Shown here piece by piece: positions 14,313 through 43,776 of a stretch of 64,000 nt of DNA. The notes under the pieces were generated by a model. The model saw only the letters and a program-made list of their open reading frames with translations. It did not search any database and was not told the origin of the DNA. Position 1 is the first letter of the stretch. Every line of letters starts with the position of its first letter. This DNA comes from Candidatus Thioglobus sp. NP1. Lineage in GTDB: Bacteria > Pseudomonadota > Gammaproteobacteria > PS1 > Pseudothioglobaceae. The translations under genes and the position numbers were made by a program. The DNA is taken from NCBI RefSeq assembly GCF_003326015.1, contig NZ_CP023860.1:496001-560000 (forward strand), read 5' to 3'.

Positions 14313-14477
14313 AATTTAATTATCACATTAACTCTTATTAATTGCAATGAACTTTTATCTTTTATATAAAGAATTTGAGTTTTAATTTAATAAACTGATT
14401 CATATTTCTTACAAATTTCAAAGACATAACTCATATAAAATACAAACCTTATTTTTTTGATTAATAGGCTTTAAATA

Positions 14478-15065
14478 ATGACGCTCTTGTCAGCAATTTT
14501 TTTATTGATTATTATTATGGATCCAATTGGTAATGTTCCAGTTTTTTTAAGTATTCTTAAAAATATCCCAGTTGAAAGACGAAGAAAAATTATCATTAGA
14601 GAATTATTGATTGCATTATTCGTTTTGTTGTTTTTTCTATTTATTGGACGATTTATACTGCAATCTCTTCAAATTTCAGAATCCTCTTTAGGAATTGCAG
14701 GAGGTATTATGTTATTTCTGATTGCTATCAAAATGATTTTCCCTGGTGCAAACGCAATGACTACTCATGATGAAATGATTGAACCTCTCGTAGTGCCTTT
14801 AGCTATCCCTTTAATTGCTGGTCCTTCTGCTATTGCTGCTGTTATATTATTAATGGCTCAGGAGCCAAATATGTGGCCTGAATGGGCATTAGCAGTAGTG
14901 GTAGCATGTTTTATCTCTGGGGTAATTCTAGTTTCTGCAGAAACTTTAGCGCAAAAGCTTGGTGAACGAGCACTTCTTGCAATTGAACGATTAATGGGTA
15001 TTTTGTTAATGCTCGTATCAGTTGATTTAATACTAGATGGCATAAAACAAACATTTAATATCTAA
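14478..15065 (+). CDS. MarC/YhgN-family integral membrane protein
   Basis: A 195-residue inner-membrane protein of the MarC (UPF0056) family with six predicted hydrophobic helices. Family blocks include MDPIGNVPVFLSIL at residues 15-28 and VPLAIPLIAGPSAIAAVI near 107-124, a pseudo-repeat typical of the LysE/MarC fold. Function is unknown; early links to multiple antibiotic resistance were not upheld. It has no operon partner. Confidence 0.93.
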   Translation: MTLLSAIFLLIIIMDPIGNVPVFLSILKNIPVERRRKIIIRELLIALFVLLFFLFIGRFILQSLQISESSLGIAGGIMLFLIAIKMIFPGANAMTTHDEMIEPLVVPLAIPLIAGPSAIAAVILLMAQEPNMWPEWALAVVVACFISGVILVSAETLAQKLGERALLAIERLMGILLMLVSVDLILDGIKQTFNI

Positions 15066-35460: not shown

Positions 35461-35494
35461 AGAATCCTTTGTTTAACCTCTCAAATATCAAACG
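35461..35494 (+). repeat. 34-bp repeat, copy 1 (upstream of palindromic promoter 1)
   Basis: This segment (AGAATCCTTTGTTTAACCTC onward to CAAACG) recurs at 36902-36935 with 31 of 34 identical bases. A looser version lies at about 38585-38615. Copy 1 and the loose copy sit just upstream of the shared promoter motif, suggesting a regulator-binding or ancestral promoter-region segment. Confidence 0.6.
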
Positions 35495-35498
35495 AAGT

Positions 35499-35527
35499 TT
35501 AGACTTTAGTTCAAGTTGAGATAAAAT
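35499..35527 (+). promoter_or_regulatory. Palindrome-containing promoter 1 (metallopeptidase gene)
   Basis: TTAGAC (35499-35504), exactly 17 bp and TAAAAT (35522-35527). An imperfect inverted repeat TTAGACT-TT-AGTTCAA is centred over the -35 box and upstream spacer, a typical operator position. The -10 box ends seven bases before the ATG at 35534, so the predicted transcript starts on the start codon (leaderless). The same geometry is seen at 41247. Confidence 0.6.
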
Positions 35528-35533
35528 CCTAGT

Positions 35534-36277
35534 ATGAAGAAACTACTCCTACTTATAGCATTATCTTTTATCTCAACTCAGAGTTTTTGTAAAGAACCTC
35601 CATTTTGGGGAACAATATTTATTGATCCTAATATTGTTACTGCTGAAGACCCCTCTACTTTTAAAAATATCTCATACAAAGGACAAAGTCCAAGACAAAT
35701 GTATGACAGGAGAAGTTCTTGGGTTAACTTGCAGGCTTTTTTATTTGAAGCTAAATTTGAAGATGGAAGTATTATTGAGATGCAAGTAAATCCAGAATTT
35801 AAAGATAAGTCAATGGCAGAGGTTGAGGCTAAAAAGTATGCCTTCTTAATTGGACAACTTCCAGCAGTTCTTAGAAAAGATATACAAACTTCATGGATTC
35901 ACAAAGGAGTAAACCCTTTTGGAGGAGGTAATAACAACATATTAATCCATACAGGGCAAACAAAAGAATATGAAGAAAATGGTATTTTAGAAGAAACTCT
36001 CATTCATGAAGCCTCGCATACCTCTCTTGATTCATATCATGCTAAAAATTATGCTTGGCAAGAAGCACAACGCAAAGATAATCATTTTATTTCTGGTTAT
36101 GCAGAAGAAAATCCAATGAGAGAGGATATTGCTGAAAGTTTTCTAACTTACATAGCGGTTAATCATAGAAGTGATAGAATCTCTCCCAAACTTAAGTCAA
36201 CAATTCTAAAAACCATTCCAAATAGGATTAAGTATTTTGACAATCAGAACTTCGACTTATCTATATACTCAAAATAG
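35534..36277 (+). CDS. Secreted HExxH metallopeptidase-like protein
   Basis: A 247-residue exported protein. A signal peptide (MKKLLLLIALSFISTQSFC) is followed by a mature part with the zinc motif LIHEASHTSLD (His158, Glu159, His162) and a downstream EDIAESF segment whose glutamate may be the third ligand. This arrangement resembles gluzincin peptidases. No close family is recognised. No Shine-Dalgarno precedes the ATG; the promoter geometry suggests a leaderless mRNA. The CIA30 gene follows 36 bp later and is probably co-transcribed. Confidence 0.72.
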   Translation: MKKLLLLIALSFISTQSFCKEPPFWGTIFIDPNIVTAEDPSTFKNISYKGQSPRQMYDRRSSWVNLQAFLFEAKFEDGSIIEMQVNPEFKDKSMAEVEAKKYAFLIGQLPAVLRKDIQTSWIHKGVNPFGGGNNNILIHTGQTKEYEENGILEETLIHEASHTSLDSYHAKNYAWQEAQRKDNHFISGYAEENPMREDIAESFLTYIAVNHRSDRISPKLKSTILKTIPNRIKYFDNQNFDLSIYSK

Positions 36278-36313
36278 ATATCCCCCTTTAACTTCTGGTT
36301 TAATAAAGTTTAT

Positions 36314-36901
36314 ATGTTTAAAAATTCGTTAAAAATTTCAAAAATAAGTTATTTTTTATCCTTAATAGTTATGATTACTATTAACTCAAAAGCGATTGCT
36401 GTTGAAGACCTTTCATTTCCATTTAATGCTAATAGTGGAAAGTACTGGCAATACATTAGTGATCAAGTGATGGGAGGTGTTTCTGATGGTGAAGTTACTC
36501 TTGAGCAAGATGGAGAAATGTATTATGCAAGACTTACAGGTAATGTAAGTACAAGGAATTATGGTGGTGTTATTCAGTTACGCACAGGAATTTCATTTGT
36601 AAATTCTGAAAAAAATGGCAAAAATCTTCAGGGTGTTCGTCTTAACGTAAGAGGCAATGGTGAAACTTATGATATCCATATAATAACTAATGATATGGCT
36701 TATTATGGAGACTTTTATTATGCAACCTTCCAAGCTGACTCTGAGTGGAAAATGATTGACTTGCCTTTTAATACATTCGAACGTAAGCGTTACAATACTT
36801 CAAAGTTAGATGCTAAAAATATAAGAAGCTTTGCTATTGCAGCTTATGGCCGTGATTTCAAATCTGATGTTTCCGTCTCAATAATAGAGTTTTACTATTA
36901 G
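36314..36901 (+). CDS. CIA30-family protein
   Basis: A 195-residue protein with a hydrophobic N-terminal segment (about 10-27) that is probably a signal peptide or anchor. The mature part matches the CIA30 (complex I intermediate-associated protein 30) beta-sandwich: QYISDQVMGGVSDGEV near the N-terminus, and FYYATFQADSEWKMIDLPF near the middle. Bacterial members have no proven role and are not clearly linked to complex I. It lies in a probable operon with the metallopeptidase and converges on the GMC gene. A copy of the 34-bp repeat starts at its stop codon. Confidence 0.8.
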   Translation: MFKNSLKISKISYFLSLIVMITINSKAIAVEDLSFPFNANSGKYWQYISDQVMGGVSDGEVTLEQDGEMYYARLTGNVSTRNYGGVIQLRTGISFVNSEKNGKNLQGVRLNVRGNGETYDIHIITNDMAYYGDFYYATFQADSEWKMIDLPFNTFERKRYNTSKLDAKNIRSFAIAAYGRDFKSDVSVSIIEFYY

Positions 36902-36935
36902 AGAATCTTTTGTTTAACTTCTCAAACATCAAACG
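36902..36935 (+). repeat. 34-bp repeat, copy 2 (between CIA30 and GMC genes)
   Basis: 31 of 34 bases match copy 1 at 35461-35494. This copy lies at the 3' junction of two convergent genes, overlaps the last codons of the GMC oxidoreductase gene, and lacks the downstream promoter boxes. It may be a remnant of a former promoter region. Confidence 0.6.
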
Positions 36936-38553
36936 CAAAAGTTGCCTTTATAGGACTTAATTGTTCCTTTCCTAAAATCATATCTGCTGCACGAGCAGCT
37001 ATCATTTGAGTTGGAGCATTTAAATTTCCTGAAATTATTTGCGGCATAACAGAGGCATCGACAACGCGAAGATTTTTGATTCCATGTACCTTCATTTGGT
37101 CATCAACAACTGCCATTTCACCACCCCCCATAGCACAAGTACAGCTGGGGTGATAGTCTGTCTCCGCGGCATCTCTTATAAACTGCTCAATGTCAGCCTC
37201 AGATTGTACTTGAGGACCTGGTATTAACTCGACCCCCCTAAATTCATCAAATGCAGGCTGTGAAATGAGTTCACGCGCTTTTTTAAATCCATTCACCATA
37301 TCAGCTAAATCTTCTGAGTCTTGGAAGTAATTAAATGCCATTAATGGTTTTTCAAGTGGATTTGCAGATTTTAGAGTTACTTGCCCCCTACTGCGAGGTC
37401 GCAGATGATCTACATGAATTGAAAAAGCTTGTAGTAAGGATATTTTGTCGTCATTATATTCAAGTCCTACTGGACCAAAGTGATACTGAATGTCAGGGTA
37501 TGCTATATTTGGACTGCTTTTTATCAGTCCACCCGCTTCCCAAATATTTGAAGTTGCGATTCCCTTTCTAGTAAAGACCCACCTTATACCGGTTGCTAAT
37601 TTTCGATGAGGTTGATTAACTTTATGTATTGGAAAACTTTTTTTGCACGCGTATTGTAATATGACGCACGAATGGTCTTGAAGGTTTTGACCAACTCCAG
37701 GAAGATCGGCATGAATTTCTATGCCATGCTTTTGCAGGTGCTTTGATGGGCCGACACCAGAAAGCATCAGTAAATGTGGCGAGTTTATTGCCCCACCCGA
37801 TAGTATTACTTCTTTATTAGCTTTTACTGAATGAAGCTTACCCTTATGCTTAAAGGAAACTCCATTTACTGAATTACCAGTAATATTTATTTTCATGACC
37901 TGTGCTTTTGTGAGGAGCGTTATATTTCCTCGGGCAAGGGCTGGCCTTAGATATGCTCCAGCAGCGCTGCATCGACGCCCATGTTTTCGTGTTGCATCTA
38001 GCCTTGCTATACCTTCAGGATTAAAACCATTAAGATCTTCAGAATAACCCTGTCCAGATTGGCGTCCCGCTTCTTCAAGTGCATCAAACAAAGGATTATC
38101 AAATGAACCTTTTGTGACGCCAAGATTGCCACTACCGCCTCGCCACTGATCTTCACCACGATCTGAATTCTCACCTTCTTTAAAATAAGGTAAGCATTGA
38201 TCATAAGACCATTCCTTTAATCCACATTCAGTTTGCCAGCGATCATAATCTAATGGATGGCCTCTCATATAAACCATTGAGTTAATAGACGAAGAGCCTC
38301 CAACAACTTTACCTCGAGGCATTGGAACATTTCTATCAAAAAGCTCTGGTTCATTCTCGGTTGAATAATTCCAGTTAATCTTTGGGTTTCGGTAAGCTTT
38401 ATAAACACCAGCAGGTATATGGATCATCAAATTGTAATCCATTGGACCCGCCTCTAAAACTAAGATCTTATGTTTCTTACCTTCGCCAAGTTTATTTGCA
38501 AGTACACATCCAGCTGAGCCGGCGCCAACTATTACATAATCATAATTTTCCAT
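36922..38553 (-). CDS. GMC-family oxidoreductase (choline dehydrogenase-like)
   Basis: An FAD-dependent alcohol/choline dehydrogenase of 543 residues. The FAD motif DYVIVGAGSAGCVLANKL opens the protein. GMC signature 1 (MPRGKVVGGSSSINSMVYMRG) and signature 2 (GGAINSPHLLMLSGVGP) follow. The C-terminal active-site region has YHPSCTCAMGGGEM with the catalytic histidine. The family oxidises choline, long-chain alcohols or polyethylene glycol. BetA is the best-known relative, but no betaine aldehyde dehydrogenase is adjacent. ATG 38553 is preferred over TTG 38562. Confidence 0.88.
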   Translation of the reverse strand: MENYDYVIVGAGSAGCVLANKLGEGKKHKILVLEAGPMDYNLMIHIPAGVYKAYRNPKINWNYSTENEPELFDRNVPMPRGKVVGGSSSINSMVYMRGHPLDYDRWQTECGLKEWSYDQCLPYFKEGENSDRGEDQWRGGSGNLGVTKGSFDNPLFDALEEAGRQSGQGYSEDLNGFNPEGIARLDATRKHGRRCSAAGAYLRPALARGNITLLTKAQVMKINITGNSVNGVSFKHKGKLHSVKANKEVILSGGAINSPHLLMLSGVGPSKHLQKHGIEIHADLPGVGQNLQDHSCVILQYACKKSFPIHKVNQPHRKLATGIRWVFTRKGIATSNIWEAGGLIKSSPNIAYPDIQYHFGPVGLEYNDDKISLLQAFSIHVDHLRPRSRGQVTLKSANPLEKPLMAFNYFQDSEDLADMVNGFKKARELISQPAFDEFRGVELIPGPQVQSEADIEQFIRDAAETDYHPSCTCAMGGGEMAVVDDQMKVHGIKNLRVVDASVMPQIISGNLNAPTQMIAARAADMILGKEQLSPIKATFAFDV

Positions 38554-38619
38554 AAAACTCAACGCTTAAAACACTTAAACAATAGTTTAAATTAACTCTC
38601 CCAAGCATATCAAAGGAAT

Positions 38620-38648
38620 TTGGACTTTAGTTCAAGTTGATATTTAAT
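38620..38648 (+). promoter_or_regulatory. Palindrome-containing promoter 2
   Basis: TTGGAC (38620-38625), exactly 17 bp and TTTAAT (38643-38648), with the inverted repeat TTGGACT-TT-AGTTCAA over the -35 box. The 23 bases from GGACTT to TTGA match promoter 1 almost exactly. It lies in the 262-bp gap upstream of the divergent GMC gene, so an operator here could serve both directions. Unlike the other two, it is followed by a 25-nt leader with AGGAGG. Confidence 0.55.
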
Positions 38649-38679
38649 CATATTAAAGTATAAAAATTAGGAGGAAATT

Positions 38680-38748
38680 GTGAATGCATTCATCGTATCA
38701 ACTTTTGATGGAACAACTGAAGATTATATGAAAAGTTTAATTGTGTAG
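38680..38748 (+). CDS. Possible 22-residue peptide or gene remnant
   Basis: A GTG at 38680 opens a 22-residue frame (NAFIVSTFDGTTEDYMKSLI) ending at TAG 38746-38748. It is preceded by AGGAGG (38669-38674), the strongest Shine-Dalgarno in this region, and by promoter 2. It may be a real small peptide, a leader peptide for the operon starting at 38816, or the truncated start of a lost gene. No family is recognised. Confidence 0.3.
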   Translation: MNAFIVSTFDGTTEDYMKSLIV

Positions 38749-38815
38749 ATTAAGTCTATTCTCTAGAAAAAATGAATTAGTGATAAAATCACTCTTTTTC
38801 ATGTCATAGTTATAG

Positions 38816-39046
38816 ATGAGATTTGCTAAATACGAACAACAGTTAAAGTGGTTTGCTCTATTCCTGGGAATCCTAAGTACAATTGCTATTATTAATGACT
38901 TGTATCCTTATACAATGTTTATTGGGCTTCCTTTTTGCTTAATCTGGGTTTATTGTGCTTGGCTCCATACTGAGAAACAATTAAAATGGATTAATATAAT
39001 CTTTACTGGGTTATATACATATGGAATAGTGAATTACTATATTTAA
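38816..39046 (+). CDS. Small three-helix membrane protein, unknown
   Basis: A 76-residue hydrophobic protein with three predicted membrane segments (about 11-29, 32-51 and 58-75). No domain is recognised. It ends two bases before the DUF2237 gene, so it is probably the first gene of an operon running to 41126. It is downstream of promoter 2. Short length lowers certainty, but composition and context support coding. Confidence 0.6.
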   Translation: MRFAKYEQQLKWFALFLGILSTIAIINDLYPYTMFIGLPFCLIWVYCAWLHTEKQLKWINIIFTGLYTYGIVNYYI

Positions 39047-39048
39047 TA

Positions 39049-39417
39049 ATGGACGAGTCATTTAACGTATTTGGTGAAAAATTAGAAGTTTGTGGTATGG
39101 ACCCAGTAACTGGATTCTATCGTGATGGTGTGTGTAATACCTGTAAAGATGACTTTGGTTCTCATACAGTCTGTATTGAAACTTCACAGGAATTTTTAGA
39201 CTACACAAAATCACAAGGAAATGATTTATCTACTCCTATGCCTGCTTATGGATTTGAAGGACTAGAGCCAGGTGATAATTGGTGTGTATGTACTGGACGT
39301 TGGTTAGAAGCAGAGAAGAGGGGTATGGCACCTAGACTAAATTTACAAAGTACGCATATAAGAGCATTGGAAATAATTCCAATGGAGCTCCTTATAAAAT
39401 ATGCAGTAGATGAGTAA
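39049..39417 (+). CDS. DUF2237 family protein
   Basis: A 122-residue cytosolic protein of the DUF2237 family, unknown function. The family's features are visible: FGEKLEVCGMDPVTGFYRDG at the start, the cysteine pair in GVCNTCKDDFGSHTVC, and PGDNWCVCTGRWLEA followed by APRLNLQSTH. The conserved cysteines suggest metal or redox chemistry, which is unproven. It is between a small membrane protein (2-bp gap) and a CPXCG protein (9-bp gap). Confidence 0.85.
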   Translation: MDESFNVFGEKLEVCGMDPVTGFYRDGVCNTCKDDFGSHTVCIETSQEFLDYTKSQGNDLSTPMPAYGFEGLEPGDNWCVCTGRWLEAEKRGMAPRLNLQSTHIRALEIIPMELLIKYAVDE

Positions 39418-39426
39418 ATATAAAAA

Positions 39427-39618
39427 ATGACAAATAAAGAGATCACCTGCTTCTTTTGCTTTGAACAATTTGAAGTTTCATTAGAAATAGGTTCATCGTT
39501 TATTGGAAATGATATTGAGATTTATGACTGCGAGATATGTTGCAACCCAAATAAACTTGAGTATGAAGTTTATGATGGCGAAATAATCATAAATAATGTT
39601 GGTGATGGAAATGAGTGA
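39427..39618 (+). CDS. CPXCG-motif cysteine-rich protein
   Basis: A 63-residue protein with two cysteine pairs, CFFC near residue 8 and DCEICCNP near 38-45, as in the CPXCG family, where the first pair is usually CPYC. The pattern suggests a zinc ribbon. The first motif is altered (Pro to Phe) but both cysteines remain. It overlaps the Rieske oxygenase gene by a few bases, which implies translational coupling. Function is unknown. Confidence 0.78.
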   Translation: MTNKEITCFFCFEQFEVSLEIGSSFIGNDIEIYDCEICCNPNKLEYEVYDGEIIINNVGDGNE

Positions 39619-40750
39619 AATAGAGCAAAAATTTGAAGAGCATCTAAAGCTATGTCAGTTACCTCCTCTTCAAAGACGAAGCCTGCCTTTTGAATGCTAT
39701 TGGAGAGAATCAATTTTGATTCAAGAGCAAAAGCATATTTTTTCTAACCAGTGGCTTGGCTTAGGAAGGGCTGATAGATTGGAAAATCATGGTGAATATG
39801 AAGCCTTTGAGCTTTGTGGTAAAGCCTTAGTTTTAATGCGTGACCAAGATAAAGTATTGAGATTATTTGCTAACACTTGTCGCCATAGGGGCGCAAAACT
39901 TTTGGAGAGTACTGGTCAGTGTCAAGCTATCAGTTGTCCTTTTCACGGCTGGACATACTCACTTGATGGCAATTTAATAAATGCTAAAACAATGTCAGAA
40001 AATCCTAATTTTGACTTTCTGGATCATTCCCTAATTGAATATGAATTGAAAGATGTTCAGGGTTTCCTTTTTGCTTTTCTGGGAGATCAGCCAACAGATT
40101 TAGATACTCAACTTGGTGATTTCTCTGAATTACATCAGCCTTGGTCTTTAGATGAATTAATTACTACCAGGCGCGCAGTCTTTGAGGTGCAGTGTAATTG
40201 GAAAGCTTTTTTAGATGTTTTTAATGAATACTATCATTTGAACAATGTTCATCCAACCAGTATTGATAACCTTTACAACATTCCGGAAGAAGCGGATAAA
40301 ACAACAGGGGATTATGCTAGTCAGTTTGGTTTAACCACTGGTACAGGAGCATTACTAGAATCACATCAATCTAATGCATTGCCAAAAATGGAAAATTTAG
40401 ACTCACCTTGGAATCTTGGTGCTCGCTATACTTGGGTTTTTCCAAATATGACTTTTGCAGCAAGTCAAGAAGCAATTTGGGTTTACGAAGCAACCCCAAT
40501 TTCTTCAGGAAGATGCATGGTTAGACAAAGTATTTGTTTTCCAAAAACAACAACAGAACTCCCTAATTTTAAAGAAAAATCTCTAGTCTATTATCAGCGA
40601 CTTGATGATGCCCTAGATGAAGATATTGCTGCACTAGAAAATCAGCAAAAGGGCCTTAATAAATCGCCTTCTATTCAGGGGCAATTCTCTACATTAATGG
40701 AAGCAAATGTTGCAAATTTTGCTCAATGGTATGCGAATAAATTAATATGA
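39611..40750 (+). CDS. Rieske non-heme iron oxygenase, alpha subunit type
   Basis: A 379-residue ring-hydroxylating/N-demethylating oxygenase. The Rieske [2Fe-2S] ligands are Cys90/His92 (FANTCRHRGAK) and Cys109/His112 (SCPFHGWTYSLDG). The mononuclear iron site has EYYHLNNVH with His209 and His214. The family includes aromatic dioxygenases and the quaternary-amine oxygenases (carnitine, choline and glycine-betaine monooxygenases). The single-subunit context without a beta subunit favours the latter, but this is inference. No reductase gene is adjacent. Starts at 39596 or 39605 are alternatives. Confidence 0.88.
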   Translation: MSEIEQKFEEHLKLCQLPPLQRRSLPFECYWRESILIQEQKHIFSNQWLGLGRADRLENHGEYEAFELCGKALVLMRDQDKVLRLFANTCRHRGAKLLESTGQCQAISCPFHGWTYSLDGNLINAKTMSENPNFDFLDHSLIEYELKDVQGFLFAFLGDQPTDLDTQLGDFSELHQPWSLDELITTRRAVFEVQCNWKAFLDVFNEYYHLNNVHPTSIDNLYNIPEEADKTTGDYASQFGLTTGTGALLESHQSNALPKMENLDSPWNLGARYTWVFPNMTFAASQEAIWVYEATPISSGRCMVRQSICFPKTTTELPNFKEKSLVYYQRLDDALDEDIAALENQQKGLNKSPSIQGQFSTLMEANVANFAQWYANKLI

Positions 40751-40908
40751 AAAAACCACTTAAAATTATTGGCCTATTAATCTTAGCCTGGGGTTTAGTC
40801 GAAGGAGCTTTATTCTTTTATAATTTTAAATACATTAAATGTACAGCAGGAATTGAAAACCAACAATTAGTCGCTGAAAAATGCTCTTATTTAAATAAAC
40901 TAAAATGA
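40747..40908 (+). CDS. 53-residue membrane-anchored protein, unknown
   Basis: A short frame of 53 residues (MKKPLKIIGLLILAWGLVEG... ending LNKLK). One hydrophobic N-terminal helix (about 6-27) is followed by a small domain with two cysteines (KCTAG and EKCSY). It overlaps the Rieske gene's stop by 4 bp (ATGA) and the next gene by 4 bp (ATGA), a strong sign of translational coupling. Absent from standard length cut-offs. Function unknown; it could be an accessory subunit. Confidence 0.6.
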   Translation: MKKPLKIIGLLILAWGLVEGALFFYNFKYIKCTAGIENQQLVAEKCSYLNKLK

Positions 40909-41126
40909 TAGACTTTCTAATTCCTACCCCTCTAATTATAGGGCTTCTATTAGTCCCTTTCTGTGGGTTATTCTTAATAAAGCGAACGACATATAGAAAA
41001 ACAGGTATCGCCCTAATAGTTGTCTCTTTAGGCTTTGTATTGTTTGCTTTTATAGGGTTTCTTCTTTCCTGGTTAACAGTTTCAATATTAGATGCTCACC
41101 CAGATGGAGAGGCATTAAAATCCTGA
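40905..41126 (+). CDS. 73-residue two-helix membrane protein, unknown
   Basis: A hydrophobic 73-residue protein with membrane segments at about 8-25 and 35-62 and a short basic loop between them (KRTTYRKTG). It overlaps the preceding small gene by 4 bp and is the last gene of the 38816-41126 run. No family is recognised. Confidence 0.6.
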   Translation: MIDFLIPTPLIIGLLLVPFCGLFLIKRTTYRKTGIALIVVSLGFVLFAFIGFLLSWLTVSILDAHPDGEALKS

Positions 41127-41246
41127 TTAAGGCCAATTATACTTATGAAAAAACTATTCTTAATTTTGAAAAAATTCATTGACAATATTAAAAGTACATT
41201 TAAATCTTATGAAAGATAAAATTTTTTTTGCAAGCAATAATCGAAA

Positions 41247-41275
41247 TTGGACTCTAGTCCAAATTAATATAAAAT
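41247..41275 (+). promoter_or_regulatory. Palindrome-containing promoter 3 (lipocalin gene)
   Basis: TTGGAC (41247-41252), exactly 17 bp and TAAAAT (41270-41275). The palindrome TTGGACT-CT-AGTCCAA (41247-41262) is perfect here. The -10 box ends seven bases before ATG 41282, so the predicted transcript is leaderless, the same geometry as promoter 1. No Shine-Dalgarno is present. This is the clearest of the three copies. Confidence 0.65.
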
Positions 41276-41281
41276 AATATT

Positions 41282-41821
41282 ATGAAAAAACTTCTCCTAG
41301 CTGTATTTATTTCACTCGGTTTAATTGGGTGTGCTAGTAACCTAATTTTAAACGACAACAAGCCAAAATCCATGCCAGTAGTTGACTATGTCGATCTTGA
41401 TCGGTTCATGGGCGATTGGTATGTAATTGCAACTATTCCGACGTTTCTTGAAAGGGATGCATTTAATCCCATTGAAACTTATCAGCTGAGTAGTGATGGA
41501 ACTATTGCAACGACCTTCACTTTTAATAAAGGTAGTTTGAACGGTCCAACTAAGATATACCGTCCTCGTGGATTTATTAAAGATAAGCGCACTAATGCGA
41601 TTTGGGATATGCAGTTTGTCTGGCCAATAAAGGCGGATTACAGAATTGTATATTTAGATGACGATTACCAACAAACTATAATTGGGCGAAATAGTCGAGA
41701 TTTTGTATGGGTTATGGCACGAACTCCAAGGATTTCTGAACAAGATTATTTAAATTTAGTAACCATGGTAGGCGCTCTTGGATATAACCTAAATGATCTA
41801 CAAAAAGCAACTCATGAATGA
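41282..41821 (+). CDS. blc: Lipocalin lipoprotein (Blc-like)
   Basis: An outer-membrane lipocalin of 179 residues. The signal peptide ends at a lipobox LIGC with Cys17 as lipidation site. The lipocalin motif GDWY and the family end motif VMARTP are present. Blc-type proteins bind fatty acids or lysophospholipids and are induced in stationary phase or envelope stress. It stands alone behind palindromic promoter 3, whose geometry suggests leaderless translation. Confidence 0.9.
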   Translation: MKKLLLAVFISLGLIGCASNLILNDNKPKSMPVVDYVDLDRFMGDWYVIATIPTFLERDAFNPIETYQLSSDGTIATTFTFNKGSLNGPTKIYRPRGFIKDKRTNAIWDMQFVWPIKADYRIVYLDDDYQQTIIGRNSRDFVWVMARTPRISEQDYLNLVTMVGALGYNLNDLQKATHE

Positions 41822-43632: not shown

Positions 43633-43776
43633 TTCATTTCTCTAATTTTTTTGATATTATTAAACAAAGTCAATTATAGTTAAAAATAAATCACCTTGAT
43701 ACATCAAACTAAATTTCGACTTTTAAAACTTTCTAATTAACTTATAATTTACGAGATTTTTAATGACAAAATAATT

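Follow-up and report, generated by a model that had tools for sequence, protein, structure and literature searches.

A dispersed intergenic repeat of the Pseudothioglobus/SUP05 genus as a probable joint for gene modules, with a predicted, mostly leaderless promoter

Why does nearly the same promoter-like sequence stand three times within a few kilobases, ahead of different genes? We analyzed a window of 64,000 nucleotides (G000:C1:496001-560000 of a 1.69-Mb chromosome, Thioglobaceae), in which a preliminary description had reported three -35/-10 pairs with a 17-bp spacer and had read them as a possible small regulon, under a repressor acting on the -35 box. All three sites are present on the forward strand: TTAGAC at 35499, N17, and TAAAAT at 35522-35527, ahead of an ATG at 35534; TTGGAC at 38620, N17, and TTTAAT at 38643-38648; and TTGGAC at 41247, N17, and TAAAAT at 41270-41275, ahead of an ATG at 41282. 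They exceeded chance: where 2.1 matches to TTGGACTNTAGTCCAA with at most three mismatches were expected, the window has nine, a number that none of 100 shuffles attained. In two of the sites the -10 box had been described as ending seven bases before the ATG, and we indeed found six bases between hexamer and ATG at 35534 and 41282. The site at 38620 is not leaderless: it is followed by AGGAGG (38669-38674) and by a GTG start codon (38680). Only at 41247 is the inverted repeat perfect (TTGGACTCTAGTCCAA), as had been claimed for that copy, and the other two sites present one and two mismatches against its pattern.

At the locus level, each site lies within a longer repeat copy on the forward strand. 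Copy 1 (35476..35547; model match of 70.6 bits, E 3.4e-20) joins the boundary box CCTCTCAAATATCAAACGAAGTTTAGACTT to a predicted leaderless promoter, and a 247-aa protein of unknown family begins at its ATG (MKKLLLLIALSF...; 35534..36277, +). It is followed by a CIA30-domain protein (PF08547; 36314..36901, +) and a GMC oxidoreductase assigned by Pfam (36922..38562, -). Copy 2 (38592..38665; 53.5 bits) contains the boundary box and the TTGGAC-N17-TTTAAT promoter. Directly behind it, with a good Shine-Dalgarno motif (the AGGAGG mentioned above), lies the 22-codon ORF MNAFIVSTFDGTTEDYMKSLIV, read from the sequence (38680..38748, +), followed by a 76-aa protein (38816..39046, +), a DUF2237 protein (PF09996; 39049..39417, +), and a Rieske/ring-hydroxylating oxygenase (39596..40750, +). 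Copy 3 (41223..41295; 43.7 bits) has a decayed left box and an intact core, and the lipocalin behind it (41282..41821, +) has a predicted leaderless start. A weak box-like remnant at 43691..43716 (+; six mismatches in 26) is tentative. Pfam agreed with the CIA30, DUF2237, Rieske, and lipocalin genes that had been named downstream, but gave no match for the supposed metallopeptidase at 35534.

Judged by their matches in other genomes, all three sites belong to one family of dispersed intergenic repeats, specific to the Pseudothioglobus/SUP05 genus of abundant marine sulfur bacteria. A 30-bp pattern searched in 77 relatives gave about 70 occurrences, nearly all inside the genus, with none for the reversed-pattern control and none in 28 other families. 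The sequence model matched in 28 of the 29 genomes of the genus, with 1 to 37 matches per genome and 14 in the genome of the window, so that the further copies and the conservation in relatives looked for in the preliminary description are both there. Elsewhere in the family the model matched sporadically, in a few genomes of four other (sister) genera. The relatives with the repeat include the SUP05 cluster, Ca. Thioglobus, and Ca. Pseudothioglobus (among them PS1, genome G006), plus otherwise-named contigs that are maybe mis-binned. A viral origin was rejected, with no exact match to the repeat in viral contigs. A described structured RNA was also rejected, since an Rfam search at the gathering threshold matched tRNA alone, in four loci. 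In the open-access papers searched we found no earlier description of the repeat, though one may exist elsewhere.

The conserved unit has sharp edges and measures about 75 bp, while long copies reach about 150 bp. Relative to TTGGAC, the aligned copies are conserved between positions -26 and about +48, through the ATG and into AAAAAACTACT. The left part is the boundary box ACCTCCCTCACACATCAAACGAAATTTGGACTT, with the core TTTGGACTT; some copies extend it upstream (CGCATATATATTCAGACTTTGAAGG...GATATATACAC), to about 105 bp. The right part is a predicted promoter, TTCAAGTTGATATACAATCCTAGT-ATG, where conservation reaches the first codons. The two parts are separable: 72 of 150 boxes had no promoter part within 55 bp, and the 78 boxes with one kept the arm spacing seen in the window in 61 cases and were wider in 17, by 4-24 bp or more and mostly by about 5, 11, or 22 bases. 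Moreover, the right arm is usually TTGAACT, which is not the mirror of TTGGACT. Because the box may stand alone and the arm spacing varies, the apparent palindrome is, on these alignments, the seam between a box module and a promoter module. Many copies run into short decayed frames (MKKLLLFL-stop and similar) that look like decayed signal-peptide starts, which fits a copied promoter and start better than it fits the convergent evolution of an operator. In some copies the 30-bp core alone is kept between unrelated flanks. This core is nearly invariant, and orthologous methyltransferase genes in L055 and L115 retain it upstream despite their diverged flanks.

Some further regularities were observed around the copies. 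The extra spacings near 5, 11, and 22 bases in the 150-box set approximate half, one, and two turns of DNA. A multicopy secreted protein family (MKKLLLLLILSFFSAQSFAGSCPDGSEPVKS...) often lies right behind the repeat (L060, L061, L069, L073, L110, and L163:5990-9787), and a recurrent C-terminus, ...FEAELAAELGQ, precedes several boxes.

For the promoter part, we examined 188 genes of the window's own genome and PS1, a set biased towards island loci. In 17 of them a -10-like hexamer was separated from the ATG by six bases, vs. roughly 1-7 genes at other gaps, and 16 of these 17 lacked a Shine-Dalgarno-like motif. The hallmarks of a leaderless sigma-70 promoter are a -10 box some 6-7 bases ahead of the start codon and the lack of a Shine-Dalgarno motif, and this arrangement is what the sequence displays. 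We infer that the repeat carries a mostly leaderless sigma-70 promoter, which would be active and start transcription at the A of the ATG. The six-base excess was seen genus-wide (for example, at 41282 of the window, L024:13718, and L154:6635), also at repeat-free genes. This suggests that leaderless transcripts are common in this gammaproteobacterial genus, and the repeat suggests the same for the starts of its flexible genes.

Copies of the repeat gather in arrays. The genome of the window has eight boxes between successive genes at 339-346 kb, one of them between two convergent genes, and in other genomes as many as 12 boxes fall within 20 kb. In the variable arrays a box stands at nearly every gene boundary, convergent pairs included. 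The boxes of all 93 adjacent pairs share the same orientation, with genes on both strands. Replication may or may not direct this orientation, since the PS1 array at 1085-1088 kb contradicts a simple replication-direction rule (origin placed by dnaA). The eight-box array lies directly behind a tRNA-Met gene, and the same position is occupied by arrays in G004, G006, and G019, with different contents.

When we compared the window locus with PS1 and G016, the flanking genes were common and the genes between the repeats differed. The gene order in PS1 is CIA30, repeat, and 76-aa gene, and in the genome of the window CIA30, GMC oxidoreductase, repeat, small peptide, and 76-aa gene. The 76-aa protein is 100% identical in PS1, likewise behind a repeat copy. 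The GMC oxidoreductase is 94-96% identical in L117 and L160, where the identity stops at the repeat and different genes lie beyond. A relative of the Rieske protein starts directly at the repeat ATG in G004, G006, and G010, within other arrays. Two further pairs of loci display the joint from both sides: L157 and L167 are about 97% identical as far as TTTGGAC(T/A)TTAG and unrelated beyond, and for L149 and L166 the identity lies downstream of the joint and the difference upstream. These alignments show that close relatives, as far as compared, change gene content exactly at the box.

Counts of block ends point the same way. Among shared blocks of at least 90% identity, 20 of 60 ends fell within 20 bp of a box, vs. 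a mean of 8.5 and a maximum of 15 for random intergenic positions in 500 trials; these counts are not independent, since both partners are counted and the loci were chosen for having repeats. A laxer block set gave a weak excess (27 of 107 ends in boxes vs. 18.3 for random intergenic positions, maximum 33).

The explanation that we consider likely is that the repeat is a joint for the exchange of gene modules, furnished with a mostly leaderless sigma-70 promoter. The boundary box would mark the joint between exchangeable modules in variable arrays, and the right part would supply a sigma-70 promoter ready for use, with six bases between its -10 box and the ATG, so that a module joined there could be transcribed from its start codon without a leader. 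New modules probably enter by recombination between repeats, and such recombination would keep all repeats in the same orientation. Recombination is the presumed cause of the module switches, and candidate enzymes for the exchange are RecA or some site-specific recombinase. Against this reading, the cores with unrelated flanks look more like selection on the promoter than like a joint.

The same nearly invariant core, together with the equal arm spacing of most promoter-bearing boxes, speaks for the original proposal of one regulon, with a dimeric repressor binding the palindrome over the -35 box. We nevertheless regard that proposal as unlikely. A unit of about 75 bp is much longer than an operator, and its conservation includes a copied start codon and decayed signal-peptide starts; the right arm is usually an imperfect mirror of the left, and the arms move apart in the 17 wider boxes. 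Promoterless boxes occur between convergent genes, and the target genes have no common pathway. We noticed no regulator gene adjoining the annotated repeat copies. A light or photoprotection regulon (LitR/CarH or ECF) was dropped when the repeat was seen to extend to unrelated genes. Given the length of the unit, the promoterless boxes, the variable arm spacing, the single orientation, and the gene switches at the box, an operator-defined regulon is unsupported. The recurrent near-identical promoters of the preliminary description, its leaderless starts (on sequence only), the further copies, and the conservation in relatives hold; the repressor regulon as stated lacks support. A shared regulator may still control the core promoter, because this core persists ahead of orthologues despite the divergence of their flanks.

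Two kinds of known mobile element could also produce repeats at gene boundaries. Self-insertion there by a non-autonomous transposable repeat (MITE, REP/RAYT, or Correia-like mobile promoter) would explain why near-identical copies are numerous, dispersed, sharp-ended, and sometimes truncated, and promoters within mobile repeats are known. It would not account for the shared orientation of all adjacent pairs or for the neighbor gene changing along with the box in the compared pairs, and inspection of copies revealed no terminal inverted repeats or target duplications, so we find self-insertion quite improbable. Its RAYT-driven form was rejected, since the Y1 transposase (PF01797) occurs in just one of 29 genomes. 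Integron cassette arrays without an integrase (CALIN), in which the box would be attC, match the orientation-locked boundary boxes, the module exchange at the box, and the several arrays per genome, but the diagnostic features did not appear. Inspection of the consensus (30 long and 71 short copies) revealed no RYYYAAC/GTTRRRY pair; the folding of 25 long copies did not surpass that of shuffles (mean z -0.1 to -0.6), and hardly any consensus structure emerged, the consensus folding energy being near zero; and the nearest tyrosine recombinase scored 60 bits against the TIGR02249 cut-off of 265 (two representatives tested). The modules also have their own promoter, with genes on both strands. 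This leaves the CALIN explanation very remote, and by the tests made the repeat, although it resembles a cassette joint, falls outside the integron family.

No dedicated recombinase for the repeat was found in the genomes examined, a further point against the joint reading. Some genomes carry an extra (third) tyrosine recombinase of about 340 aa beside tRNA genes, but others with many repeat copies lack it. It is conceivable, though doubtful, that we are dealing with a gene-cassette system not described before, in which genes with their own leaderless promoters are inserted at orientation-locked TTTGGACTT joints and exchanged between them by a non-integron site-specific recombinase.

The tRNA-linked islands with the ~340-aa tyrosine recombinase (L198:9421-10446 and 14424-14557; L199:5329-5526; L200; L202-L207) have an organization of their own. 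The stop codon of the island integrase is usually followed by TTTCAGAATAAACTACAAT, with an ATG about seven bases on, and the integrase 3' end with the TTTCAGAATAAACTACAAT promoter recurs farther along, ahead of other island genes. The 3' end of the integrase itself may contain the attachment site. At L201:9280-9400 (G015), a long joint repeat directly follows the integrase stop codon, replacing the usual TTTCAGAATAAACTACAAT promoter, an arrangement that links the integrase islands with the joint repeat.

It is a standing question how SUP05 and other streamlined, abundant bacteria of the ocean go on gaining and swapping genes. If the joint reading is true, the answer would be concrete and testable: a repeat that marks the joints and provides newcomers with a working promoter and a start codon. 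The repeat would also be a sequence tag for spotting flexible genes in metagenomes.

Finally, the repeat can be set beside known systems. Known leaderless sigma-70 promoters likewise have a -10 box about six bases from the ATG and no Shine-Dalgarno motif, but here, unlike those, the promoter is copied with the start codon across unrelated genes. Correia repeats, promoter-bearing MITEs, and 'putative mobile promoters' are likewise dispersed, short, and intergenic, with a promoter for the adjoining gene, whereas in our repeat no terminal inverted repeats were seen, the start codon belongs to the unit, the orientation is locked, and half of the boxes are promoterless. With integrons and CALIN it has in common orientation-locked boundary repeats, exchangeable modules, and arrays at several loci; the attC motifs, hairpin, and integron integrase were not found here, and the modules have their own promoters with genes on both strands. 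Tycheposons and other tRNA-linked flexible islands of marine bacteria likewise place variable genes beside tRNA in streamlined marine genomes. Here, in contrast, no recombinase lies beside the array of the window's own genome, and the repeat stands at nearly every internal gene boundary.
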